Notes under the pieces: model-generated
Databases searched by the model: none
Seen by the model: only the letters and a program-made list of their open reading frames with translations
Told to the model about the DNA's origin: nothing
Made by a program: the position numbers and the translations under genes
In this document: piece after piece, positions 130-18,122 of the stretch
Layout of the letters: the number at the start of each line of letters is the position of its first letter
Position numbering within the stretch: position 1 is the stretch's first letter
Virus record (IMG/VR): IMGVR_UViG_3300022591_000084
Span: 1 to 20,162 of that record
DNA: 20,162 nucleotides
Reading direction: 5' to 3' (one strand)
Source: a virus

Positions 130-1433
130 TGGAGAGTGAAATCTTTCTTCCCTATCAAAAGCGGTGGATGCTGGATAAATCCCAGGTAAAAATATGGGAG
201 AAATCGCGCCGAATAGGCGCAAGTTTTTGCGAGGCCGCGGCCTCTGTTCTGTTAGCTTCAGCCAGAAATGGCGCGGACGTTTACTACATCTCCTACAACC
301 AGGAAATGACCAGCGGGTTTATCTCTGATTGCGCGAAGTGGGCCAATGCTTTTCATATTTCCATAGATAAGCACATCGGTGACAAAGTTTTGACGCGGGA
401 CGACGGAAAGGATATCCATGTCTATGATATTCCCTTCTATAGCGGCCATAAAATCGTGGCCTTCTCTAGCAATCCGCGCAACATCCGATCAAAAGGCCGG
501 CCAGGGGATTGGGTAATAATAGATGAAGCGGCGCATGTAGATGATATCGAAGATATGCTCAAAGCAGCGCTCGCTGTCACGATGTGGGGCGGAGAGGTTC
601 ACCTTCTCTCTACCCATAATGGTATGCTAAATCCGTTTAATCGACTTATACAAGAAGTTAAGCAGGGACAATACGATTATTCTATCCACAAGACCACATT
701 AGACTTAGCCCTTCAGGAAGGGCTCTATAAACGGATATGTCAGGTCAGCGGAAAAAAATGGACACAGGAAAATCAGGTTTCTTGGCGATCAGAGCTAATG
801 AGGAGATATAGGCCACGGGAGGATGAGGAGCTGTTTTGCATACCCGCCACGAGTGGCGTAGGTTTCGTGATCCAGGATAAAATCGTTGTGGAGGATTTTG
901 TACCTGATCCCGACTTATGGGACGGCCCCTATTTCGGCGCGGATTGGGGATTCTCCCGCGATCCATCTACGATTATCAAGGTATGGATATTTGACGATAA
1001 TCTTTACGTGGAGAACGAAAATTGGGGTGTAGGAATAGAGATAGATCAGCTTCCTGATTTCTTCGATGAGGTACCCGAATCACGGTACTATGCCATCAGA
1101 GCAGATAGCGCACGTCCTGATACCATCTCCTATCTCAACCGAAACGGATTCCAGGTTTTACCATCGGAAAAAGGGCCCGGAAGCATAGAGGATGGAATCA
1201 CCCATCTGAGAGGGTATAATAGGATTATTATCCATTCCAGATGCCGGCATACTATCGAGGAGGGTAATCTGTGGAGGTATAAGATGGATCGGTTGAGCAA
1301 TACTCCAACCCGTAAACCTGAGCCAGGATATGACCACTGCTGGGATGCGATACGATACAGCTTGGAACCCATCATGAAATACCGGGACATGGTACGAATC
1401 AGCGAAGATGCTTTTTTTGAGATATCACGATGA
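126..1433 (+). CDS. Phage terminase large subunit (packaging ATPase-nuclease)
   Basis: This is the DNA-packaging motor protein, 435 residues, a normal length for the Mu Gp28/T4 gp17-like terminases. Seen motifs: LPYQKRW (8-14) followed by the deviant Walker [11 protein letters not shown] (25-34); Walker [10 protein letters not shown] (129-137, D133/E134); coupling motif LLSTHNG (160-166); and an RNase H-fold nuclease with D273 ([11 protein letters not shown]), D327 (RADSARP) and D407 (HCWDAIRY) as likely metal ligands. The start is ATG 126 or the adjacent ATG 129. An in-frame TAA at 108-110 excludes anything upstream, and AGG at 116-118 is the only ribosome site. The 3' end overlaps the portal gene by ATGA. 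Family knowledge: the N domain hydrolyses ATP to drive DNA into the prohead through the portal, and the C domain cuts the concatemer. All catalytic positions appear intact. Confidence 0.96.
167..196 (+). repeat. 30-bp exact direct repeat, copy 2 (inside terminase coding sequence)
   Basis: This is the second copy of the repeat at 99-128, offset by 68 bp. Here it encodes part of the conserved N-terminal stretch that leads into the ATPase motif of the large terminase, so it is probably the source copy. Copy 1, in the intergenic space, is the likely duplicate. Confidence 0.9.
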
Positions 1434-4400
1434 ACTTAGACCAGGATACTCAGCTAAACATAGCCAGAATGCTCGCAGAGGTTATGGAAAAGCCACTCAA
1501 AAGTTACCCAATTCAAAAGCCATGGCTGCCATCGGGCGTTGTACCGGATGGCATCACGCCTGCCGTGGCGATGGATAACGCGACCTATTCTCATATGAAT
1601 TATTTGGATGCGATAGGAGATTTACAGGGTTTTATTGGCTACCCCCATCTATCCCAGCTAGCGATGCGGACGGAATACCGGGCCTTCGCGGAGGCACTCT
1701 CGGGGGGAATCACTCGCAAGTGGATTAAGCTGACATCCAGCGAAACATCCGGGGATGAGAGTGGAGAAAAGATAAAAGCCATCGAAAAGGAGTTGAAACG
1801 AATCCGGTTGAGAGAAGAGATCAAAAAGGCGTGTGAACTTGATTCGTTATTTGGAAGGTGCCATGTTTATGTTGATATTAAGGGTCAAAATTCTGCTGAT
1901 ACTCTGATTATCGACAAGCGAACCATTCCACAAAGGTCATTAGTTGGGGTAAGGGCTATTGAGCCCATGTGGACAACGCCAATCCAATACAATTCCACCG
2001 ACCCTACCCTACCCGATTTCTACCGGCCTAAATCCTGGTATGTGCTGGGTAAGGAGATTCACTCTAGCCGGTTTCTTGAGGTATTGACGCGGCCAGTTCC
2101 CGATATTCTAAAGGCGGCCTACAATTTCGGCGGAATTTCCTTATCACAGTTATGTGAAGTTTACGTGGAGATATGGCTCAAGACTAAGACGGCAGTGGGG
2201 GACCTGGTTAGGAATTACTCGATCATCATCCTGTCCACCAACATGGGGCAGCTATTACTAGGCAAGAATGCGTCCAAGGACAAATTATCCTTAAAACAAC
2301 GCGCCGATTATTTTAACGTCATGAGGGACAACCAGGGATTGATGGTCCTGGATAAGGAGCGTGAAACCCTGGAACAAATCGCGGTCCCACTTTCTGGGCT
2401 ATCCGATATTCAGCAACAGGCCCTGGAACATCTTTGCACTGCAAGCCATATCCCCGCCGTGATGTTGACGGGTATTTCTCCCAGTGGGCTGAATGCGTCA
2501 AGTGATGGGGAAATCCGCATATGGTACGATTGGATTAATTCGCATCAGGAAGCGCATTATCGAGAGCATATCTCGAAAGTTATTAAGATAGCTCAATTAT
2601 CTTTGTTCGGAGAAATCGACCCGTCTATCGATTTCGATTTTGTTCCACTCTACCAGATGACCGAATCGGACCAATCCACCATCCGCGCATCGGATGGGCA
2701 GACCGCTTGCAATTATATCGACCGTGGCGTGATTGACGCGGGAGAGGAAAGGAAACGCCTCGCCGAAAACCCTGATAGTCCTTATCACGGCCTGGATTTA
2801 AGCGTCATGCCGGTGATGCCAGGGGAAGAATTTGGGAACCCACAGGAGGAACAATCCCCTGCCATGGATGCCTGGATAACCGTCAAGCCACACGGGGATG
2901 ATGAGAAAGGTTCGCATGTTGAAATTGACGAACAGGGAAGAGTTCAAAAAGGAATGGGCGGGAAATTCACAGGTCAGCGCATCAGCGAGATTCATAAAGG
3001 CTTCGAAGGTCCTAAAACACCCTCTCAGGCGCACATCGAGGAAGGCAAGAAGGCGGAAATCAAGGATAAGCCTAAAATACCAACAAGGAAGGGGTTAGTA
3101 GACTATTCTAACGAGGAATTATCCAATCCAGAAACCTATAAGGATAATCCGGATTTGGAAGCTATTTCAAGAAAAGTAGGAAATGAAAAGTTTGAAAGCC
3201 ATGCTCAGGGAAAAATGGGGCGAGGAGATTTTAAGAAATCCATACAAGAAGGAAAGTTTCCTGAGTTAGTTAAGGAGCATCTTGATAAGGTTCTTGCTGA
3301 AAAGAAGAAAAAAGAAGATGACTTTGCATTATCTCATGTTATTGTCCCAACATTACAATTACCATCTGGATGGGGGTCAGAGGTAAGCGATGATGGAATA
3401 CATTTCGCTGGTCCTTATAATGAGGATGTTCAAAGCAGATTAAAAAGGCTAGGATCGTATTATGATCCCAAGACTCGGCATTGGATAGCGCCTCATTCAT
3501 CTAATGTAAAGCTAGAAAAAATGTTTGCTCGTGCCGGAGCGGCTACGGAAAGGAAGAAGGAGGAAAAGGAGAAACAAAAGAGGGAGGAAAGAATAAAATG
3601 GGAGGCTGGGGAAGAGGATAGGAAAAGGCAAAGGGAAGAGAATGAGAGAAAATGGGCCGCTGAAGAAACGGCCAAAAAAACTCAGATTGAAAAAGAGAGA
3701 ATGCAGCGTGCGAAGGAAAGGGAGGATAATCCTCCTGAACCCTCTTACCATCATAGAGTATTACTCCCTAAAGGCGCTAATCCACCGAAAATAGAAGGCA
3801 TGTCTTACTCAGGAAAAGGAAAATCATTTAGAATAAATGAAGATCATCCTTCTACCGAAGGCTCTCATCTTTTGGGTCATGAAGGCGAAATGGGTGAATA
3901 CCATTATTACAAGAAAACGCCAACTAATCTAACTTCACAGAAACAGCCATCCCCAGTATCAGAATATGAACCTTCCATTGATCCCTATATGTACCCTGGT
4001 GATGACTACGCCTCACAAGCTGGATATGATAAAGAATCAGGGAAACAGCTTATCTATCTTGGTGGAACTAAATGGAAAGCCGTCAATAATGGCGTTGAGA
4101 AAATAATAGATAGTCCAAAGACAACGGAATCCATAAGTAAAGGAATACCCAGAAACGTATCTCCTGAAGAGCATAAGGAAAATAGGGATAGAATGAAGTC
4201 TATTATGGAAAAATCAAAGTCTAATAATGAAAAGGGAAACACTGAAACCGTTAAAAATACCGGCCTTAGTGAATCCCATGAATCTGTAAAAAGAATTGGG
4301 CTTCCAGATTCATGGAAGGGGACTTATGCGGATAATGGTGATCTTATAGTATCAGGTGAATATGATCCTAAAGCAGCAGAAAAGCTAAAATCAATGGGTG

Positions 4401-4513
4401 GAAAATGGAATCCAGCAGAAAAAACTTGGATAGTTAAAAAAGAATCAATAGAAAAAACAGAGAAGAAAAGGAAAGAACTAGAGGAACGTATAAAAAAATA
4501 CCAATCTATTTAA
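1430..4513 (+). CDS. DUF1073-type portal protein with a long C-terminal extension
   Basis: At 1027 residues this is about twice the usual length. Residues 1 to about 470 match the DUF1073 (Phage_portal_3) family as I recall it: [20 protein letters not shown] (81-100), [14 protein letters not shown] (136-149), the block around [13 protein letters not shown] (202-214) and [12 protein letters not shown] (230-241). This part should form the dodecameric vertex ring that terminase docks on. The rest is unlike a portal: [20 protein letters not shown] (499-518, resembling motifs in phage polyvalent-type proteins), a HARP/DUF5710-like unit at 644-688, a charged coiled coil (about 705-765), a Gly/His/Tyr-rich part (780-890) and a second HARP/DUF5710-like unit at 958-1002. 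The DNA from about 3100 to 4513 looks more AT-rich than its surroundings. It overlaps terminase by ATGA. The function of the extension is unknown. Confidence 0.9.
3359..3493 (+). repeat. HARP/DUF5710-like protein repeat 1 within portal extension
   Basis: This encodes residues 644-688 of the portal protein. Key features are LP..W at the start, [17 protein letters not shown], then [11 protein letters not shown]. It aligns along its whole length with the unit at 4301-4435 ([30 protein letters not shown]). The pattern of a tyrosine-acid turn, an amphipathic helix, then Y/W-D/N-P-x-x-K/R-x-W resembles HARP (SMARCAL1) and DUF5710 modules. I assign this by eye, not by a profile search. Confidence 0.6.
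4301..4435 (+). repeat. HARP/DUF5710-like protein repeat 2 within portal extension
   Basis: This encodes residues 958-1002, followed by a short Lys/Glu-rich helix to the C terminus at 1027. It is the partner of the unit at 3359-3493, about 270 residues downstream of it. Conserved positions are LP..W, the Y-D/N turn, an LK.(L/M)G helix end, and (D/N)P...(T/H)WI. The [11 protein letters not shown] version is closer to DUF5710 than to HARP. Confidence 0.6.
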
Positions 4514-4519
4514 AGTAAA

Positions 4520-5326
4520 ATGCCATTAAAATTTATTCGCGCCATACATCCTAACGAAGGGATTAAATCATCCTACGCTAAGGCTTTGCGCATCCTTGTC
4601 GATGAGATGGTGGCTAGCCTAGTTCACTGGCTGCGGGCGTCCACTACGGCTCATCCCCCCGAAGTGGCACAGGATCAAGACCCGTCTGCTCCGTCTCAGG
4701 AGGTGGCCGGCAGATTAGGAAACCTCTTTGATTCGTGGCGTGAACGGTTCGATGTATCGTCACCTATACTGGCTAAACGATACCTAGAAGCGCAACGCAA
4801 TGCGACAGATCTATCTTTCAAGGCGGCGTTAAAGGAAGCGGGCTGGTCCGTTGATTTCGAAATGACCAACGCGATGCGGGATGCTATGGAAGCGAAGATT
4901 GCCGAGAATGTGGGACTTATCCGCACCATTCCCGAGCAGTATTTCTCGAAGATCGAGGGTCTCGTCATGCGCTCCTATTCCGTGGGGCGCGACTGGGCCA
5001 CGATGGCGAATGAGATAGAGAAAATAGGCCATTCCACGAGGGAGAGAGCCATCTTCATCGCTCACGATCAGATGAACAAGTGCAACGCGGTGGTTCATCG
5101 TGCGCGTCAGTTAGAGATTGGCATAAAAGAAGCGAAGTGGCTGCACAGTCATGGGGGCCGCGTACCAAGGCCGGATCACGTAGCGGCGCATGGTAGAATT
5201 TTTGACGTTGAGAAGGGGTGCTTAATATCAGGGGTGTATATATTTCCAGGTGAATTGATTTCGTGCCGGTGCCAAAGCAGATCCATCCTCCCCCCACCCA
5301 GCGAAAGATTGAATTTTGGTGCTTGA
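4520..5326 (+). CDS. Phage head morphogenesis protein, Mu gpF-like
   Basis: The 268-residue protein has a C-terminal Mu F-like domain (PF04233 type) at about 155-256. The signature elements are RAIFIAHDQMNKCNAVVHRA (176-195), W207, GGRVPRPDHVAAHGRIF (212-228) and PGELISCRCQSR (243-254), with the paired Cys/His residues expected of the family. The N-terminal 150 residues are helical and variable. Family members are minor capsid proteins needed for head assembly and are normally encoded next to the portal, as here. The start ATG lies 6 bases after the portal stop with no clear ribosome binding site, so translation probably depends on the portal gene. The stop TGA (5324-5326) lies within a TTGACA that may be the -35 box of a promoter for the next gene. 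Confidence 0.9.
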   Translation: MPLKFIRAIHPNEGIKSSYAKALRILVDEMVASLVHWLRASTTAHPPEVAQDQDPSAPSQEVAGRLGNLFDSWRERFDVSSPILAKRYLEAQRNATDLSFKAALKEAGWSVDFEMTNAMRDAMEAKIAENVGLIRTIPEQYFSKIEGLVMRSYSVGRDWATMANEIEKIGHSTRERAIFIAHDQMNKCNAVVHRARQLEIGIKEAKWLHSHGGRVPRPDHVAAHGRIFDVEKGCLISGVYIFPGELISCRCQSRSILPPPSERLNFGA

Positions 5327-5358: not shown

Positions 5359-6651
5359 ATGGAAGCCTTCCCACTCATTGCCCTTGATAGTCAAGAATCC
5401 GTCAGGTCATTTGACGCCGATGGGCGGCTTCATGTGGCTAAAACCCACCTCAGCAAAGCCGCTATCAATCCTTATTACGGTCGGGAAATTCCCGGCTATG
5501 AGGAACTAGGACTGAAACCAGGCGCGGTTTACAGGATGTTTAGACCCCCCGAAGAACTTGAAAAGGCCGCGCCAACTTTTCAACGCTTGCCTATCCTGTC
5601 AAAACACGTTCCGATTTCCTCTGACGCGCTACCCAAGGAATTGATTGTAGGGGCTATTGGAAGCGATACCGCTTTTAACTCACCCTATCTCGATGCCTCG
5701 CTTTCTGTTTGGACAGATCCAGCCATCGCGGGGATTGAATCAGGACAGTACAAAGAGCTATCCAGCGCATACCGATATACCCCAGTCATGACATCAGGAA
5801 GTTGGGAAGGGAAAGCCTACGATGGAATTATGACGGAAATCAATGGAAACCATCTAGCTTTAGTGGATCGTGGCCGCGCTGGCAGTGATGTAGTGGTGGC
5901 TGATGAACAACCTTATTCAATGAAAACAAGAGATTATACAATGTTAATGACTAAAAAGGGCGCTGCCATCCATGCCGCCTTGTGCGGGATGTCGAAAACT
6001 CTCGCGATGGATGCTGGCTTGGGTGCCATTACCGCCAATGCGGGAGGAAAGGGCTGGAAGAAAGGAGAGGCCGCCAGGGCTATCCTTGCGCTTGACGCGG
6101 ACGTTAGCCCGGAAACCCTGGACAAATTGCTCGATGCGGTGATTGGGATTGATGACAATGAACCGAAAAGCGGAGAAGAGCTGCCACCCGTAGCTACCGA
6201 CGAACCTCCGGCCGCCATGGAAGAGAAAAAGCCTATGGGGAAGAAAGAACAAGCCTCATCCTTACTAAAGGGAAAAATTCCCGATGAATTGCACGACGCC
6301 ATTCTGAAACTGTTTGAAGAGGATAAGCCATCTATGGAAAAACATGCAATGGATCGAGCTATTCGTTCAGCGATTGAATCGCATAAAGCCGAGATCAACT
6401 TAGCGAACTCCGCCGCCAGGGATGTGCGAGGAACGATAGGAGAGGTAGATATTACCCTAAAGGCCGATGAGATTTACGGAATGGCGCTAGATCATATTGG
6501 TGTCGATCATACCGATGTTGTGGGTGCTTCTGCTCTTCGTACTTTGTATCGAGCGGTAACATCTGCCGCTATCCCTACCTCACAACCTAAAGGAAATCCA
6601 GCAGAACTCTATAAGCGGTTTCCTGACCTTGCTAAACTCAGGAGACGTTAA
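5359..6651 (+). CDS. DUF2213 protein: probable prohead protease with scaffold-like C-terminal half
   Basis: The 430-residue protein has residues 15 to about 180 matching DUF2213: FDADGRLHVAKTHLSKAAIN (18-37), EIPGYEELGL (43-52), PILSKHV (78-84), YKELSSAYRY (131-140), YDGIMTEINGNHLALVDRGR (154-173). The family is regarded as a phage prohead maturation protease. H83, S135 or S136, and H165 are plausible catalytic residues, but that is my inference. Residues 180-430 are Ala/Lys/Glu-rich and helical, with an acidic linker (265-295), and look like a fused scaffold. The gene precedes cement and capsid genes, which suits a protease-scaffold role. No ribosome binding site precedes the ATG, but the protein start agrees with family members I recall. 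A candidate promoter lies directly upstream. Confidence 0.85.
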   Translation: MEAFPLIALDSQESVRSFDADGRLHVAKTHLSKAAINPYYGREIPGYEELGLKPGAVYRMFRPPEELEKAAPTFQRLPILSKHVPISSDALPKELIVGAIGSDTAFNSPYLDASLSVWTDPAIAGIESGQYKELSSAYRYTPVMTSGSWEGKAYDGIMTEINGNHLALVDRGRAGSDVVVADEQPYSMKTRDYTMLMTKKGAAIHAALCGMSKTLAMDAGLGAITANAGGKGWKKGEAARAILALDADVSPETLDKLLDAVIGIDDNEPKSGEELPPVATDEPPAAMEEKKPMGKKEQASSLLKGKIPDELHDAILKLFEEDKPSMEKHAMDRAIRSAIESHKAEINLANSAARDVRGTIGEVDITLKADEIYGMALDHIGVDHTDVVGASALRTLYRAVTSAAIPTSQPKGNPAELYKRFPDLAKLRRR

Positions 6652-7147: not shown

Positions 7148-8158
7148 ATGCAATATGAACTAAAAGAATTAGCTGAACGCGCTGGTATTACGTTTCCACC
7201 AGATGTGCGAGGAATTACTTCGGAGGGATTCGGAATGGATGCGCAGATTTCGACCATTACTACTCCGAATAGCGGTATCCCGACATTTCTCACTACCTGG
7301 GTATCCCCCCGCGTTATTGAGGTGGCCACCGCCAGGATGGCGGCCGCCGAGATTGTCGGATCGGAAGTGATTCAAGGGGATTGGACGGATTCCAGTTTAG
7401 AGTTCCCCTTGGTCGAATCCACCGGAAAGACGGCGGCCTATGGTGACAAAAACACCAATGGGCGGGTAGGAGTTAACATCGCTTGGCCTGGCCGCCAGAC
7501 GTTTAGCACTCAGGTAATGAGTGAGTGGGGAGTTCGTGAGCTGGATCGAGCGGGTAAAGGTAAGATTGATCTAGCCAATCGAATATCGATTGCCTCCACC
7601 TCAACCCTGGCGCAGTGGCTCAACAAAAGCTATTTCTACGGCATCTCGGGGTTGAAGATCCGCGGCCTGTTGAATGACTCGGATTTGCCTAACGCTATTG
7701 TCCCATTGGATAAAGGTTCTGACGATAAGTGGACGGCCGCCACCGCACAGCAAATTTTCGATGATGTCATGGCGCTTTACGCCGATCTCACCACTCGGAA
7801 TAAAGGCATTATCAATATGGATTCGGAGTTTACTTTGGCGTTATCCAATACCCGTGAGCCGCAACTGGGGAAAACATCGGCCTACATGAACTTCAGCGTG
7901 AAGGACACCCTACAAAGGACCTTCAAAAACCTCACGATTGTTACCGCGCCACAATACACAACGGATTCCGGAGAGCTGCTCCAGTTGATTGCAAAAAATG
8001 TCAACGGCGAGCCAACGGCGGAATGTGTCTTTACCCATAAGCGGCGTGCTTTCCCTATCGTTAATTTTGGAACATGGTTTGAACAAAAGCTAAGTAGCGG
8101 AACTGCTGGAACCGTTATTTATCATCCGACCTATATTTCTTCCATGCTAGGTATTTAA
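7148..8158 (+). CDS. Major capsid protein, DUF2184 family
   Basis: The 336-residue protein matches the DUF2184 group of HK97-fold major capsid proteins. Recognisable stretches include GIPTFLTTWVSPRVIEV, AAEIVGSEVIQGDW, FPLVESTGKTAAYGD, YFYGISGLKIRGLLND and the C-terminal AFPIVNFGTWFEQKLSSGT. Many copies assemble into the icosahedral shell. The ATG has an upstream AGGAA. The position after protease and cement genes and before neck genes is the standard one. There is no N-terminal scaffold-like delta region, which fits scaffolding being supplied by the preceding DUF2213 protein. Length and sequence appear complete. Confidence 0.93.
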   Translation: MQYELKELAERAGITFPPDVRGITSEGFGMDAQISTITTPNSGIPTFLTTWVSPRVIEVATARMAAAEIVGSEVIQGDWTDSSLEFPLVESTGKTAAYGDKNTNGRVGVNIAWPGRQTFSTQVMSEWGVRELDRAGKGKIDLANRISIASTSTLAQWLNKSYFYGISGLKIRGLLNDSDLPNAIVPLDKGSDDKWTAATAQQIFDDVMALYADLTTRNKGIINMDSEFTLALSNTREPQLGKTSAYMNFSVKDTLQRTFKNLTIVTAPQYTTDSGELLQLIAKNVNGEPTAECVFTHKRRAFPIVNFGTWFEQKLSSGTAGTVIYHPTYISSMLGI

Positions 8159-9799: not shown

Positions 9800-10129
9800 A
9801 TGCCAAGAATAGTCAATGATTTTAAGATTGGGGCTACCTTTATCCTATACGGGAAGCTAGAAGATTCTAATAGCGTATTCGATAGCTCGGGATATTCAAT
9901 AGCCTGTCAAATTAATGATTCAGCAGGAAACAAAATTGATACGCTCACCGCCGAGTTTATTACTCCAACGCCTGAAGGCTATAATTTTCTGATTTCAAAA
10001 CTCGCTTCGTATACCAAGCTATGGCCTCCTGGCGCGGCGGTTTATGATATCAAGATCACTGCACCAAATGGTATCGTGGATTACACCGTAACGGAAAATA
10101 TTAACTTAATTGTAAATGTGACGCCATAA
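9800..10129 (+). CDS. Small beta-sandwich-like protein upstream of the fibre (BppU N-terminal-like?)
   Basis: The 109-residue protein has alternating beta-strand character, with FKIGATFILYGKLED, SIACQINDSAGN, LWPPGAAVYDIKI and a C-terminal TVTENINLIVNV. The WP.G...DI.....G......T pattern resembles small Ig-like or BppU N-terminal-like domains encoded before fibre genes in many phages. The gene abuts both neighbours (zero-base gap upstream, TAATG into the fibre gene), so it may serve as base or adaptor for the fibre. I do not know a tested function. It could also be a neck or capsid accessory. Confidence 0.6.
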   Translation: MPRIVNDFKIGATFILYGKLEDSNSVFDSSGYSIACQINDSAGNKIDTLTAEFITPTPEGYNFLISKLASYTKLWPPGAAVYDIKITAPNGIVDYTVTENINLIVNVTP

Positions 10130-11757
10130 TGCTAAATATTACTCTTGAGGTTGATCCCCCTCTAGCTATTAAGGTGGCCTATCCAGGGCCTCAAGGCGTC
10201 CCTGGGCCGAAAGGTGATGCTGGAATTCAGGGACTAAAGGGAGACTCTGGGGAACAGGGCCCTAAAGGTGAACCCGGGCCAGGACTTCCAGCGGGAGGAA
10301 CTACCGGACAGATACCCTATAAGATCAGCAGCACGGATTACGAGGTAGGATGGGAGGATGCGCCTTCTGGCGGCGGCGGTGGAAGCGGAGATATGCTTAA
10401 GTCCACCTACGACACCAATAATGATGGCGTGGTGGATGACTCCGATAAGCTGCATAGCCAGTCATCCGATTATTATCTGGACGTAGACCACCACACGGAT
10501 GGCACCGTCAATAAAGTCTACACTGTCGCTGAACAAACTAAACTGGCGGGGATAGCCGAGGGCGCTGAAGTCAACGTTAATGCGGATTGGAACGCCAGTA
10601 GCGGGGATGCGCAAATACTGAACAAGCCCAGTATCCCCGCCGCGCAGGTTAACAGCGATTGGAGCGCGATAAGTGGGGTGGCGCAAATACTTAACAAGCC
10701 ATCTCTAGCTACTGTGGCGACATCTGGGAGCTATGCGGATTTATCCAGCAGGCCCGCCATACCCTCCGCTTTGTCCGACCTATACAGCGACGCCACGCAC
10801 CGGATTGTCACCGATGCGGAAAAGAGCGCATGGAACGGCAAGCAGGACGCATTGGGATTTACCGCCGTCCCCAACACCCGCCATGTGGCGGGCCATGCGC
10901 TATCAGCAGATGTCACGATCACCGCTTCCGACGTGGGGGCCGTGGCCGCCAATACCGCGATTACCGGGGCCACTAAGACCAAGATCACCTACGATTCCAA
11001 GGGGTTGGTCACATCCGGTTCGAATGCTACCACGTCTGATATAGATGACAGCGCCGATAAACGCTATTGCACAGATGCGCAGAAAACCGTTATAGGTAAT
11101 ACCAGCGGGACGAATACCGGAGATAATGCTACTAATAGTCAATACAGCGGATTGTCATCTTCTAAACAGGATGCGCTGGTATCTGGCACGAATATAAAAA
11201 CCATCAATTCAAATTCATTGTTAGGTAGTGGTGATCTGGTTATTTCAGGGGGAGGGGGTTCTTCCGTTACGACGACAAAACTCATTTCTCCTCAAGCGAC
11301 CATTGACATTCCCCTGTCATTTAATCAAATAAAGATATACTTCAACGACTTGGTTCAGTCGTCCGGGAACGTCCAGCTTCTTGTCAGGTTTCGTAGGGCG
11401 AGCGATGGAGTTTGGCTGACTGGAAATATCTATAACCATTCAATGGCCTGGGAAATCGCTTCTAATGGGTATGTTAATTACAAGGCATCCCCCTATAATG
11501 CCTTTCAGATTAGCAAATACTCAGGACCCTATAATTTCTCGGACGGCGTTCTGGATATTATCAATCATAACACTACTAATAATACTGTCATTAGCGCGTT
11601 ATGTAATGAATTCGAGACGTTGGGAGGGTCAGGATACTTATGTATGACTCATGGCTATATAACGGATAACGTCATCCATGATATGGTAAGATTGTTCTGG
11701 GATTCTGGCGTTAATTTTCAGGCAGGTGCTCAATACACAGTGGTGGGGGTTAATTAA
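10129..11757 (+). CDS. Fibre protein with collagen-like repeats and a C-terminal globular domain
   Basis: The 542-residue fibre protein begins with a short N-terminal strand region (1-18), probably the attachment end. Eleven Gly-X-Y collagen triplets follow (20-52), then a Gly/Ser linker, a DTNNDGVVDDSD EF-hand-like loop (95-106), a duplicated unit (149-170 and 173-194, each with DW.....AQILNKPS), and fibre phrases such as HRIVTDAEKSAWNGKQDALG, TKITYDSKGLV and NTSGTNTGDNATNSQYSG. Residues 375-542 form a different, globular-looking end and are the likely receptor-binding part. Such trimeric fibres contact the host surface. The gene lies between neck and tail-terminator genes rather than after the baseplate, so it may be a head, collar or whisker fibre. 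Start at TAATG. Confidence 0.85.
   Translation: MLNITLEVDPPLAIKVAYPGPQGVPGPKGDAGIQGLKGDSGEQGPKGEPGPGLPAGGTTGQIPYKISSTDYEVGWEDAPSGGGGGSGDMLKSTYDTNNDGVVDDSDKLHSQSSDYYLDVDHHTDGTVNKVYTVAEQTKLAGIAEGAEVNVNADWNASSGDAQILNKPSIPAAQVNSDWSAISGVAQILNKPSLATVATSGSYADLSSRPAIPSALSDLYSDATHRIVTDAEKSAWNGKQDALGFTAVPNTRHVAGHALSADVTITASDVGAVAANTAITGATKTKITYDSKGLVTSGSNATTSDIDDSADKRYCTDAQKTVIGNTSGTNTGDNATNSQYSGLSSSKQDALVSGTNIKTINSNSLLGSGDLVISGGGGSSVTTTKLISPQATIDIPLSFNQIKIYFNDLVQSSGNVQLLVRFRRASDGVWLTGNIYNHSMAWEIASNGYVNYKASPYNAFQISKYSGPYNFSDGVLDIINHNTTNNTVISALCNEFETLGGSGYLCMTHGYITDNVIHDMVRLFWDSGVNFQAGAQYTVVGVN
10186..10284 (+). repeat. Collagen-like Gly-X-Y repeat tract in the fibre gene
   Basis: Eleven consecutive Gly-X-Y triplets begin GPQGVPGPKGDAGIQG and are rich in Pro, Lys, Asp and Glu at X and Y. 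This composition can form a triple helix without hydroxyproline, and it implies a trimeric fibre shaft. Confidence 0.9.
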
Positions 11758-11795: not shown

Positions 11796-12282
11796 GCCAT
11801 CCATTACCGTTAATAGTATTATAGATGCGCTTTATGGGTTCTTGCGCCTTTTTGAGGCAGGCGCGGAAATAGTGCAAAGCCAGCAAAACCGCGTACCCAT
11901 GCCGAAAAGTCCTGTATTTGTTTTGACTCCCATTAATCAGAGTAATATAGAGACCCCCAGTGTGGTAGTGGAGGACAGAGACGCCATCATCACCACACCT
12001 ACCCGAATTACCATTCAAGTGGATATCTTTGGAGAGTATTCGGTGGACCTCTGCACGGCTATTATCGCGGTGATTCGATCTGGTGTATCAGACACTTATT
12101 TTCAGAATGGAATGGCGATTCTTCATTGCGATGACGGTATGCAGTCCCAATTCATAACGGGTGAACAGCAATTTGAGCAACGATGGATATTGCAAATTGT
12201 TATGCAATTTAATCCCGGCGTTGTCATGCCACTCACGACGGCGAATAAACTCTCCATTCATTCTATTGAAGGTGTACTTTGA
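11785..12282 (+). CDS. Tail/neck terminator protein (LIC_12616-like)
   Basis: The 165-residue protein fits the neck terminator group found just before the sheath gene in contractile phages: an N-terminal helix (SIIDALYGFLRLF), then QNRVPMPKSPVFVLTPI and TPTRITIQVDIFGEYSVDLC, a central helix (TAIIAVIRSG), and FEQRWILQIVMQFNPGV near the C terminus. The TRI..QVD.FG and RW.LQ...Q.NP pattern is the basis of the call. It would cap the finished tail tube and dock the tail to the head. The ATG lacks a ribosome binding site. The 3' end overlaps the next gene's TTG start (TTGA). Confidence 0.8.
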   Translation: MPYKPSITVNSIIDALYGFLRLFEAGAEIVQSQQNRVPMPKSPVFVLTPINQSNIETPSVVVEDRDAIITTPTRITIQVDIFGEYSVDLCTAIIAVIRSGVSDTYFQNGMAILHCDDGMQSQFITGEQQFEQRWILQIVMQFNPGVVMPLTTANKLSIHSIEGVL

Positions 12283-13517
12283 ACCGGGTTGACCTTAATA
12301 TTCTCACTCATCAAGGGGTTAATCCGGATTGGCTCCTCAAGGCCGTGGAGAGCGTGAAAGGTCATCCAGTTAATCTTCTGGTCTGGGAAAATCAGGGCAA
12401 CATCGCTGAAGGCAGGATTAACGCCATTCGTCAAGGGTCTGCGGAGTTTATCTGCTGGGTGGATTCTGATGATTGGCTCTATCCGGGTGCCGTTCAGGCG
12501 TGTATTGATGCCCTGGATGCCCACCCGTTAGCGGTCGCCGCCTACACCGACTGCATTCTTGTTGACGAGGCTGGGGTATATCTACGGGACGGGCCGAATG
12601 AGGCTGGCCCCTGGAACCTCCGGCACATGCCCTGGTGGGGAGGCTATGCCGAGCATTTGTGTGTGATGCGCCGGTCGGTGATTGAACCTCTGCTCGAAGA
12701 GATAAGACCATTTTACCATGGTGATTGTCATCTGCTACGTGGCCTGGCCGCAGCTCAGGGTGATTTTATCCACGTCCCTATGGTGGGCTATGCCTATCGC
12801 CAACATCCCGCTAATAGCGCCAAACAGTTCGATGTCGCTATGCTCATGCGTGCCAACGCCAGGAATTATGATGCCTTACGCGGCGCGGGACGGTTGCCTA
12901 TCCATCGTATCGACTGCCATGTACTTTATTGTCATGAGCCAAAAAATTGGCTAGAGGGTGCGCTGCGGTCGCTGGAGAATGAGCCGGTTAACGTCCATCT
13001 GTGTCCCGGTATCGCGGGTCATGTCGGGTTGGCTCGTTCCAATGCTTTCAAGCAGGGAAGTGCTGAGTATGTATCCTTTGTCGATGGGGATGACGAGGTA
13101 ATGCCGGGGGCTTTCGATGCGGCACTGGCGGTGCTGGATGCTCACCCCGAGGTGGTTTCTACCTACTGCGACATACAACTGATTGGAGCGCCAGACGGAG
13201 AGGGGTATATCAAGAACGAGTGGAATCCCGTCAAACAGTTGACGCATAGCGCGGAAGTCCACCATCTACACGTTATGCGCAGGGGTGCGGTAGAGAAATG
13301 CCTCGTTGAGTTAGCTAAGTGGAAAGGTTTCGAGGAATATCTACTGATGGGTCTATTGTGCCAATATGGAAAACATTACCACATACCAACCCAGCAATAC
13401 CGATTCCGGCAGCACGCGCAATACCCACGGGCAGGCGCGATTGGTGGTCAGTCATTGCGTAAACAGGCGGTATTAAAAGTGGCTCCTATATTATTGAGAT
13501 TATCCCATGAGATTTAA
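12279..13517 (+). CDS. Two-domain family 2 (GT-A) glycosyltransferase
   Basis: The 412-residue protein is made of two related GT2 units. Unit 1 (about 1-205) has LNILTHQG (6-13), an N-terminal nucleotide-binding half, GSAEFICWVDSDDWLYPGAV with the DxD-type DSDD at 62-65, and HLCVMRRSVIEPLLEEI. Unit 2 (about 206-412) repeats this: GSAEYVSFVDGDDEVMPGAF with DGDD at 269-272, and HLHVMRRGAVEKCLVEL. Both keep the metal/nucleotide-sugar motif, so both may be active. No membrane segment is seen. Start: TTG at 12279 overlaps the previous TGA, with GAAGG six bases upstream. The 3' end overlaps the sheath gene by 11 bases, so it is fully part of the tail operon. The acceptor is unknown: a virion protein, host glycan and hypermodified DNA are all possible. 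Confidence 0.85.
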   Translation: MNRVDLNILTHQGVNPDWLLKAVESVKGHPVNLLVWENQGNIAEGRINAIRQGSAEFICWVDSDDWLYPGAVQACIDALDAHPLAVAAYTDCILVDEAGVYLRDGPNEAGPWNLRHMPWWGGYAEHLCVMRRSVIEPLLEEIRPFYHGDCHLLRGLAAAQGDFIHVPMVGYAYRQHPANSAKQFDVAMLMRANARNYDALRGAGRLPIHRIDCHVLYCHEPKNWLEGALRSLENEPVNVHLCPGIAGHVGLARSNAFKQGSAEYVSFVDGDDEVMPGAFDAALAVLDAHPEVVSTYCDIQLIGAPDGEGYIKNEWNPVKQLTHSAEVHHLHVMRRGAVEKCLVELAKWKGFEEYLLMGLLCQYGKHYHIPTQQYRFRQHAQYPRAGAIGGQSLRKQAVLKVAPILLRLSHEI

Positions 13518-16327: not shown

Positions 16328-16530
16328 ATTTGGGTTATATCCCCAGCACGGATACCCGCCAATATGCCATGTATAGCAATATCCCCATGATCGTAGGCCA
16401 GCTATTATCCAAAAAGATGGCGACCTGGAATGAAATGGAAACGGTAATCGGCGTCGAAGATGGTTATAGGATGCTAGAAATAGCCATTGTGGACAATTAC
16501 AACCACCTATTATCCAATCAACCGCTATGA
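16276..16530 (+). CDS. Tail assembly chaperone, T extension made by -1 frameshifting
   Basis: This frame is open from a nominal GTG at 16276 to TGA at 16528-16530, but the GTG has no ribosome binding site, and the expected route is a -1 shift from the chaperone G gene at 16303-16309. Read that way the fusion is 135 residues of G followed by 73 residues starting YTRRPLNLGYIP, 208 in all. The segment has the helical ATWNEMETVIGVEDGYRMLE pattern typical of the second chaperone frame in related phages. In such systems the G-T form recruits the tube protein to the tape measure complex. It ends with an ATGA overlap into the tape measure gene. Confidence 0.75.
   Translation: MGGHQSTLRFFYTRRPLNLGYIPSTDTRQYAMYSNIPMIVGQLLSKKMATWNEMETVIGVEDGYRMLEIAIVDNYNHLLSNQPL
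16303..16309 (+). promoter_or_regulatory. Programmed -1 ribosomal frameshift slippery site
   Basis: The zero frame reads GAT TTT TTT ATA, so the heptamer is T_TTT_TTT, an ideal X_XXY_YYZ site at which both tRNAs re-pair fully after slipping back one base. It lies six codons before the G stop (16325-16327), and the -1 frame stays open to 16530. A small CAGG/CCTG stem (16314-16326) follows after four bases; this is a weak stimulatory candidate. Confidence 0.75.
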
Positions 16531-18122
16531 GTAAGAACGTCGTTGACAAAATGACCGTAGAGGTTAGTTTAGATAAAACTAATCTTGATAATGGCCTGAA
16601 AGAAGCGGACAAAGGAGCGGTTGAATTTCAAAAGAAGTTCAAGGAGGCTGGACACGTTGGAAAAGAAGCCCTGCAAGGGATGGAATCCGGCCTCAAGAAT
16701 TTCCTGTGGGTGCTCGGAACAGCGGCAGTAGTCAAGAAGTTCGGCGATGATGTCTTTGGGGCCAGCTCAAACATCTATCGGATGTCGCAAAACCTCAACA
16801 CGACATCCCACGATTTATTGACGGCAGGGGGGGCGCTAGAAAGATTCGGAGGGAAAACGGAGGATATCATAGGAATTTATAAGCGGTTTAGGGATGAAAT
16901 GAATCAATACCATTTTAGCGGAAACATGTCTGAAGGATTCATGCAGGGAATGCTAGGACTTAATATATCTTTTGACCAGTTGGAAGGGATCAAGAGCGCT
17001 ATTGAACTACTTCGTCTTTTGAATAATGCGGTAAACCGTTCTAGCCTGGGTAAATCCGAAAAGGTTTTCCTTCTGGAAAAATTCGGATTGACGCAGGAAG
17101 CCATTAATATGGTCATGCAGACAAGAACGGAATTTGAAAATCTCATTAAAACGGAAGACAACCTAACAAAAACACATGGAAAACTTTCAGAAAGCCTTAT
17201 AAGGTTACAACAAGATTTTACAAGTTTTGCACAATATCTAAGCAGTAAATTTTATGGCGCAATAGATGACTTACAGACAAAATGGGATACTTTTCATCCA
17301 GAAGTATGGAGAGAAAGATTTAAGTCTATTGGTCTATTTCCAGATAAAACACAATATGAGATAAATCAAGAAAAACAAGACAAATTACGTGATAAACATT
17401 TAAGGAGAGAGATTCATCAATTAGAAAAAGAACAATACCAAAAAATTTGGAGATGGTTAGGATTTTGGGATGATAAAGAAAAACCACCTTCTCCCATCTT
17501 ATCAACTCCATCAGAAAAATCACCTCATCCGCCATCCGTCTCAGACCAAAGAATGCCAGGGGAAAACCGGGCACAATGGTATAGCAGACTGAAAGCGAGA
17601 TATTCTCCCATGGTAGACGCCACGGCGGATAAATATGGCATACCACGGGATGTATTTCAGCGCCTGGTTAAACAGGAATCGGGCTATTACCCCGGTGCGG
17701 TATCCAGAGCTGGCGCGATAGGACTTACTCAAGTCATGCCTAAAACTGGTGCGGGGATGGGTTACATGTCCTCTGACCTCTATGACCCTCATAAAAATCT
17801 GGACGCTGGAGGACGCTATTTTAAGCAGATGATGACCCGGTATCATGGGGATATTACCTTGGCGGAAGCGGCCTATAATGCGGGCCCTGGTGCGGTAGAT
17901 AGGGCTCACGGCGTACCGCATATTGCCGAGACTCAGGACTACGTGAGACGGCTTGCACCTATACCGTCTCACTCATCCAGTTCGAAAAACGTCAATGTCG
18001 AAACCCATGTGGGAGATGTCCACGTTCATACCCAGGCGCAAGATCTTGACACCACCATTACGGATATGCGCCAATCGATGGAATCTCTATTCGGATCGGC
18101 GGCGGCGTCTGGGCTATTCTGA
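16527..18122 (+). CDS. Tape measure protein with C-terminal lytic transglycosylase domain
   Basis: The 531-residue protein directly follows the chaperones (ATGA overlap), as tape measure genes do. Residues 1-310 are mostly helical: an N-terminal VSLDKTNLDNGLKEA start typical of tape measures, one hydrophobic patch (LKNFLWVLGTAAVV, 56-69), and a charged helical region near 275-310. After a Pro/Ser linker (318-345), residues 355-475 form an SLT lytic transglycosylase: catalytic E384 in VKQESGYYPGAV, GLTQVMP (399-405), AEAAYNAGPGAV (446-457) and ETQDYVRR (468-475). The C terminus has the VETHVGDVHVHTQAQD strand motif seen at the ends of other tape measures. It sets tail length and should cut peptidoglycan during DNA entry. 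At this length the tail should be short. DNA at about 17150-17530 appears AT-rich. Confidence 0.9.
   Translation: MSKNVVDKMTVEVSLDKTNLDNGLKEADKGAVEFQKKFKEAGHVGKEALQGMESGLKNFLWVLGTAAVVKKFGDDVFGASSNIYRMSQNLNTTSHDLLTAGGALERFGGKTEDIIGIYKRFRDEMNQYHFSGNMSEGFMQGMLGLNISFDQLEGIKSAIELLRLLNNAVNRSSLGKSEKVFLLEKFGLTQEAINMVMQTRTEFENLIKTEDNLTKTHGKLSESLIRLQQDFTSFAQYLSSKFYGAIDDLQTKWDTFHPEVWRERFKSIGLFPDKTQYEINQEKQDKLRDKHLRREIHQLEKEQYQKIWRWLGFWDDKEKPPSPILSTPSEKSPHPPSVSDQRMPGENRAQWYSRLKARYSPMVDATADKYGIPRDVFQRLVKQESGYYPGAVSRAGAIGLTQVMPKTGAGMGYMSSDLYDPHKNLDAGGRYFKQMMTRYHGDITLAEAAYNAGPGAVDRAHGVPHIAETQDYVRRLAPIPSHSSSSKNVNVETHVGDVHVHTQAQDLDTTITDMRQSMESLFGSAAASGLF

Follow-up and report, generated by a model that had tools for sequence, protein, structure and literature searches.

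Why should the portal gene of a phage-like contig continue for about 550 residues after its portal core has ended, and what could so long an extension do? The question is raised by a virus contig of IMG/VR (record IMGVR_UViG_3300022591_000084), of which a stretch of 20,162 nucleotides, here called the window, was analysed. The window carries a block of head and contractile-tail genes. The portal-plus-extension reading frame (1430–4513, + strand; 1027 aa, uninterrupted) lies between the gene of the terminase large subunit (126–1433, on its 5' side) and MuF (4520–5326) and the head genes, as is expected for a DUF1073 portal. The head genes include a DUF2213 head maturation protease/scaffold (5359–6651, + strand; PF09979, E 3e-43; phrog_2229, E 7e-109) and the major capsid protein (7148–8158, + strand; Pfam Major_capside, E 1e-10; phrog_264), and the block is completed by a protein in the decoration-protein position, fibre, sheath and tape measure. 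The fibre-like protein (10129–11757) has a collagen-like Gly-X-Y stretch close to its N-terminus, and the tape-measure-like protein (16527–18122) contains a lytic transglycosylase (SLT) domain. Among the tail genes, in an unusual position, lies a gene (12279–13517, listed with a TTG start) that matches glycosyltransferase family 2 twice.

The portal core (residues 1–470; 1430–2839, + strand) was assigned by Pfam, by PHROG and through relatives of the solved portals, gp19 of E217 and Pa193. Residues 81–421 match PF06381 (Phage_portal_3, the DUF1073 portal) at E 4.1e-74 and 249.9 bits, above the curated cut-off of 33.8, and the protein matches the PHROG 146 portal at E 2e-95; an NCBIfam search of the whole frame returned the HI1409 portal family only, under its cut-off. 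The original prediction, that the core ends near residue 470 and the frame runs on to 1027, is borne out, since alignments of close portals with the window portal stop at about residue 466–471. In the phage records examined the closest portal relatives measure some 457–703 aa against 1027 aa here, and portals lacking a long extension have 515–516 aa in Aeromonas phages and 562 aa in Amjad_SA. Used alone as a query, the core retrieved one distant locus.

The extension, of which 547 residues follow the aspartate at position 480, is built from a series of distinct elements. At the join with the core stands an A-x-D motif, AMD (residues 478–480; 2861–2869, + strand), a putative site of the head maturation protease (AMD/A, in the context PAMD/A, the slash marking the cut). 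It is followed immediately by a conserved tag, WITVKPNG...GMGGKFNG..I (residues 481–525; 2870–3004, + strand; phrog_25904, E 1e-18), and then by a helical domain with the signature GKM.RGDFK (residues 561–641; 3110–3352, + strand; pLDDT about 90), which is collinear in the related loci L036, L033, L065, L037, L084 and L087. Next come a HARP/DUF5710-like module; a K/E/R-rich predicted helix, likely a coiled coil to judge from its composition and an equivalent coil in L036 (residues 693–785; 3506–3784, + strand; in the predicted model, which ends at 725, the helix begins at residue 689); an LLGHEGE motif (residues 801–820; 3830–3889, + strand), common to L036, L065, a bridge protein in L079 and other viral loci; and a second HARP/DUF5710-like module. 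Tag, A-x-D motif, helical domain and LLGHEGE motif had all been absent from the original prediction. One polypeptide, encoded among virion genes, thus combines the portal and the tag with the helical domain, both HARP-like modules and the LLGHEGE motif, the arrangement by which polyvalent proteins are recognised. Pfam and NCBIfam revealed no recognised enzymatic effector domain in the window frame; such domains are present in relatives that bear the same tag. Pattern scans of viral contigs with the extension or a module found no relative, and the distal 404 residues had no match among 50,697 phage records.

The tag is the element by which the extension can be placed among other proteins. It is 45 residues long, has no match in Pfam, belongs to a PHROG of unknown function and is predicted to fold as three strands and a helix (pLDDT about 80). 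It was found in 65 loci, 59 of them viral (from a scan with three tag sequences) and 6 in bacterial genome contigs (from a wider alignment). Its carriers are of several kinds. The tag follows portal cores in L028, L033, L035, L036, L038, L040, L045, L047, L060, L064 and L076; it shares a protein with the DUF2213 protease in L014, L017, L018, L037, L043, L044, L046, L054, L019, L074, L075 and L077; and in stand-alone proteins, many of which are encoded between head genes, it lies close to the N-terminus. In Vibrio phage 1.112.O it is on a separate gene directly upstream of the portal. Cultured phages include Aeromonas phage DH1 with a portal–tag protein, and Pseudomonas phages with other portal fusions, to an ADP-ribosyltransferase in Orisa03 and to InPase in PB1/E217. 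The tag proteins bear a varied set of further domains: DUF5710 (L016, L023, L025, L029, L033, L037, L053, L064, L065, L074), InPase (L036, L047, L060), ADP-ribosyltransferase (L060, L066, L076), PBECR1 RNase (L040), ddrB-ParB (L051, L071), NUDIX (L041) and LPD3 (L019, L074), while the tag protein of L070 carries a helicase with a Snf2-like match. Most of the domains that accompany the tag are typical of polyvalent proteins (PMC5512222). L033 and L064 are portal–tag–DUF5710 fusions in which DUF5710 exceeds the Pfam cut-off, and there it occupies the position that module 1 has in the window extension.

Comparison of extensions with the cores that carry them shows that the extension moves by itself. 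The extensions of the window portal and of L036 are collinear (E 1e-31, 30% identity over 362 aa), both running from the tag through the helical GKM.RGDFK domain, a HARP-like unit and a K/E coil to LLGHEGE, although the two portal cores are only 24% identical; the better core relatives L033 (51%), L045 (49%) and L035 (45%) carry other extensions. The order of tag, GRGxFK-like domain and DUF5710 recurs in L033, L065, L037 and L084. At the level of sequence, then, the extension is a mobile cassette of tag, helical domain, HARP/DUF5710-like module, coil and LLGHEGE, to which a second module is added here.

The two modules (module 1, residues 640–692, 3347–3505; module 2, residues 952–1006, 4283–4447; both on the + strand) are true repeats. 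They align with a Smith–Waterman score of 77, against a mean of 23 (sd 4.5) and a maximum of 60 in 20,000 shuffles, so the original claim of two units that align throughout stands, with bounds of about 640–692 and 952–1006. Their likeness to HARP and DUF5710, which had been judged by eye, holds up as a distant homology with a similar fold in the predictions but fails as family assignment, both Pfam cut-offs being missed: HARP (PF07443) reaches 12.1 bits on module 1 against a cut-off of 25, and DUF5710 (PF18974) 16.5 bits (E 0.007) on module 2 against 26.5. Even so, in a six-frame search of the window the only match of each profile was to these modules. A profile made from the two modules matched the DUF5710 domains of related phage proteins with an hhalign probability of 78% and E 1.9e-5, the best of 200 column shuffles giving E 0.0023. 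The relation to HARP is distant and indirect, through the bridge protein of L079 on another viral contig, in which two units of this kind occur together with a coil and the LLGHEGE motif seen here; neither its match to HARP (E 3e-4) nor that to DUF5710 (E 3e-3) reaches the cut-off, and its units match the window modules at E 1.8e-8, the best value from shuffles being 0.0023. The bridge protein (L079:201-1358) is a stand-alone protein and has distant relatives on plasmids.

Structure prediction points the same way. AlphaFold2 gave a hairpin–helix–hairpin–helix arrangement for module 1 (pLDDT about 90) and for module 2 (pLDDT 84), the ββαββ pattern of two hairpins and a helix. In a Foldseek search with the model of residues 470–725 a DUF5710 protein ranked first (E 4e-5), followed by an unnamed protein of 444 residues (the same length as the tag protein of Vibrio phage 1.112.O), a helicase and a HepA-related phage protein (E 5e-3, low TM-score); the model strings separate domains together, which keeps the overall TM-scores low. 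A PDB fold search with module 2 returned no significant match, which is not proof of a new fold, and no solved HARP structure turned up in the PDB searches; by sequence, the modules found nothing in the PDB and the tag a chance match only. From profile comparison and predicted folds it is concluded that the modules are distant relatives of the HARP/DUF5710 group and, by Pfam's rule, not members of it. With the HARP domains of SMARCAL1-type annealing helicases they share a sub-threshold match and occurrence in pairs, and their predicted fold may resemble phage HepA-related models, but they lie below the Pfam cut-off and their protein lacks a Snf2-type ATPase, Pfam having found only the portal and the sub-threshold DUF5710 in it. 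With DUF5710 they share the profile–profile match and, in relatives, the same place after tag and helical domain; they differ in falling below the cut-off, in two extra residues before the helix and in lacking the LNVPY motif. The literature search found only one paper that names DUF5710, a genomic study of Acinetobacter pittii.

What such modules bind can be read in two ways. Annealing-helicase activity is a known property of HARP domains (Ghosal 2011, as cited in PMC9243424), module 2 and the coil are basic, and the Foldseek neighbours include a phage helicase and HepA-related proteins; all of this speaks for DNA as the ligand. Protein binding is nevertheless a serious rival, because both annealing activity and protein contacts are reported for HARP: in SMARCAL1, contact with BRG1 is also made through the HARP domains (PMC9243424). 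The pI of module 1, 6.3, is close to neutrality, and Pfam assigns no function to DUF5710. That the modules are interaction domains for a head or host protein is quite conceivable, if not the reading preferred here, and the extension might be a delivered cargo all the same.

The original suggestion that the extension might be cleaved off finds positional support in the A-x-D motif at the join and indirect support in the solved structures of E217 and Pa193. In the head protease of SPN3US the motif A-X-E is proven, and the enzyme cuts the major capsid protein, the portal and ejected proteins after it (PMC10052503); nothing was found in the literature on the cleavage motif of DUF2213 proteases. 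The present case resembles SPN3US/phiKZ head maturation in that a three-residue motif recurs in such proteins, and differs in its motif, A-x-D, in its protease, which belongs to DUF2213, and in that cleavage is predicted. In the non-redundant set of tag proteins, A-x-D lies no more than 10 residues upstream of the tag in 18 of 34, against 4.4% of 10-residue windows elsewhere in the same proteins, and its middle residue varies among relatives (M, Q, F, L or A). It is missing there from the remaining 16 of 34 and from the closest extension relative, L036. In a non-redundant set of 19 major capsid proteins, 17 have the longer pattern A-x-D-[SAQDGR] in their first 75 residues, whereas only 5% of windows in other places contain it, and DUF2213 N-termini also have A-x-D. 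These counts are not independent, since the sequences are related. In the window, the N-terminal site of the protease itself is IALD/S (5377–5388, + strand), taken from the list of A-x-D sites, and the corresponding site in the major capsid protein, located by comparison of capsid N-termini, is FGMD/AQ (residues 28–31; 7229–7240, + strand), that is GMD and not A-x-D. An A/G-x-D motif is thus common to the N-termini of capsid protein and protease and to the portal–extension join. The window portal has 3 A-x-D against 3.3 expected by chance, which is no excess, and counts in the window proteins are not significant, except weakly for DUF2213 (P 0.04). Because of the GMD in the capsid protein and the chance-level count in the portal, the argument is one of position only.

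The solved pbunavirus heads offer a partial comparison. The E217 capsid protein is ordered only from residue 66, just past SAMD, with AMD at 62–64 and S65, and its first 65 residues are absent from both the E217 and the Pa193 models. The E217 portal, 765 residues long, is ordered only at 97–528, with AMD at 70–72 and InPase at 635–753; the Pa193 portal is ordered at 94–528, and its first 93 residues were unseen by mass spectrometry. Missing density of this kind can equally mean disorder. On these patterns the DUF2213 protease is predicted to cut at A-x-D sites, and AMD/A at the core–extension join is probably a head protease site; the cargo is therefore suggested to ride in the head and then to be cut loose.

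On balance the extension is best read as a polyvalent cargo that is tethered to the portal, probably released by the protease, injected and most likely DNA-binding. From the fusion, the modules, the tag, the mobility of the cassette and the position of the motif we infer loading into the head by portal fusion, cleavage after D480, injection and action on DNA. Fusion to a dodecameric portal would place about 12 copies of the extension inside the prohead; the DUF2213 protease would probably cut after AMD480 at head maturation and free a protein of 547 residues; this protein would leave with the DNA into the host; and the most likely target of its HARP/DUF5710-like modules would be single-stranded or branched DNA, from the incoming genome or the host, binding to which would aid the early survival or establishment of the genome. 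Being brought into contact with DNA by the portal is probably not what the extension is for, since the cassette is also found on the protease and on stand-alone proteins. Fusions of effectors to portals have already been read as injected (PMC5512222, PMC9503650). In those polyvalent proteins, as here, accessory domains (PBECR, 2H and InPase in PMC5512222; ART and NUDIX in PMC9503650) sit on the portal and are linked to virion genes; the window cargo differs in combining a tag and an A-x-D join with a pair of HARP/DUF5710-like modules, and neither HARP nor DUF5710 is named in the text of PMC5512222 (2017). The gp19 portals of E217 and Pa193 (Pbunavirus; PDB 8fvh, 9b41) differ likewise, the E217 extension carrying an InPase domain in place of HARP-like modules and showing no GMGGKF tag in its sequence. 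Portal–effector fusions as such are known, then, and the HARP/DUF5710-like extension with tag and A-x-D join is a further form of them.

The extension could also stay where it is made, as a flexible crown on the portal inside the capsid that aids assembly, scaffold contact or DNA organisation, its modules touching packaged DNA or head proteins and nothing being injected. The fusion itself, the end of portal density at residue 528 in E217 and Pa193 (compatible with a flexible C-terminus), the presence of the tag on the protease and the tag proteins without A-x-D all agree with this. Many close portals nevertheless manage without a long extension, among them those of the Aeromonas phages and Amjad_SA, the cassette also occurs stand-alone and with enzyme domains in relatives, and A-x-D lies exactly at the join, so that a permanent crown appears rather unlikely. 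Free cargo might instead be made beside the full-length portal if translation also began within the frame, at M479 (ATG at 2864), as in nested phage head genes. An AGGAGG at 2844–2849 does lie 14 nt upstream of this in-frame ATG, which is exactly at the join, but the spacing is long, AGGAGG occurs at chance frequency in the window, and relatives conserve neither start nor Shine–Dalgarno sequence at this place, A-x-D recurring instead; internal initiation is rejected as the main explanation and is improbable. That an assembly or frame error joined two genes, as the single contig and the separate tag gene beside the portal of Vibrio phage 1.112.O might suggest, is scarcely credible for 1027 codons open without a stop and is refuted as a general explanation by the portal–tag fusions on the independent contigs named above.

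If the extension is a released cargo, its tag may belong to a wider scheme. It is proposed, tentatively, that the GMGGKF tag with A-x-D is a general loading-and-release signal, by which exchangeable effectors would be attached to portal, protease or stand-alone carriers in phages that have a DUF1073 portal and a DUF2213 protease, to be cut loose by the head protease at maturation and injected. HARP/DUF5710-like modules would then be among the commonest of such payloads; proteins carried in the heads of many phages could be recognised by a short tag and a protease motif, and sequence alone would suffice to list new injected effectors. Such a signal would also help to account for the portal C-terminal extensions missing from the cryo-EM models of E217 and Pa193, and would supply a cut site that could be tested directly in laboratory phages already well studied. 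A virion with HARP-like domains would point to an early need to protect or anneal the incoming genome.

The E217 protease (L089:5133-6566) has a C-terminal run of A-x-D sites (AQD, AKD, AFD, AMD, ALD, AQD), as though a scaffold region were cut into pieces. One stand-alone tag protein (L042:2251-3849) shows a lethal-factor-like metallopeptidase match at its C-terminus, under the cut-off. A second recurring motif, approximately [FW]-DE-x-KHPR-x-x-[DN]-G-x-F, was seen in head-linked proteins, namely the portal of L002 and the tag reading frames of L019 and L084, and in the portal of Orisa03 it stands at the place of the GMGGKF tag, ahead of an ADP-ribosyltransferase.
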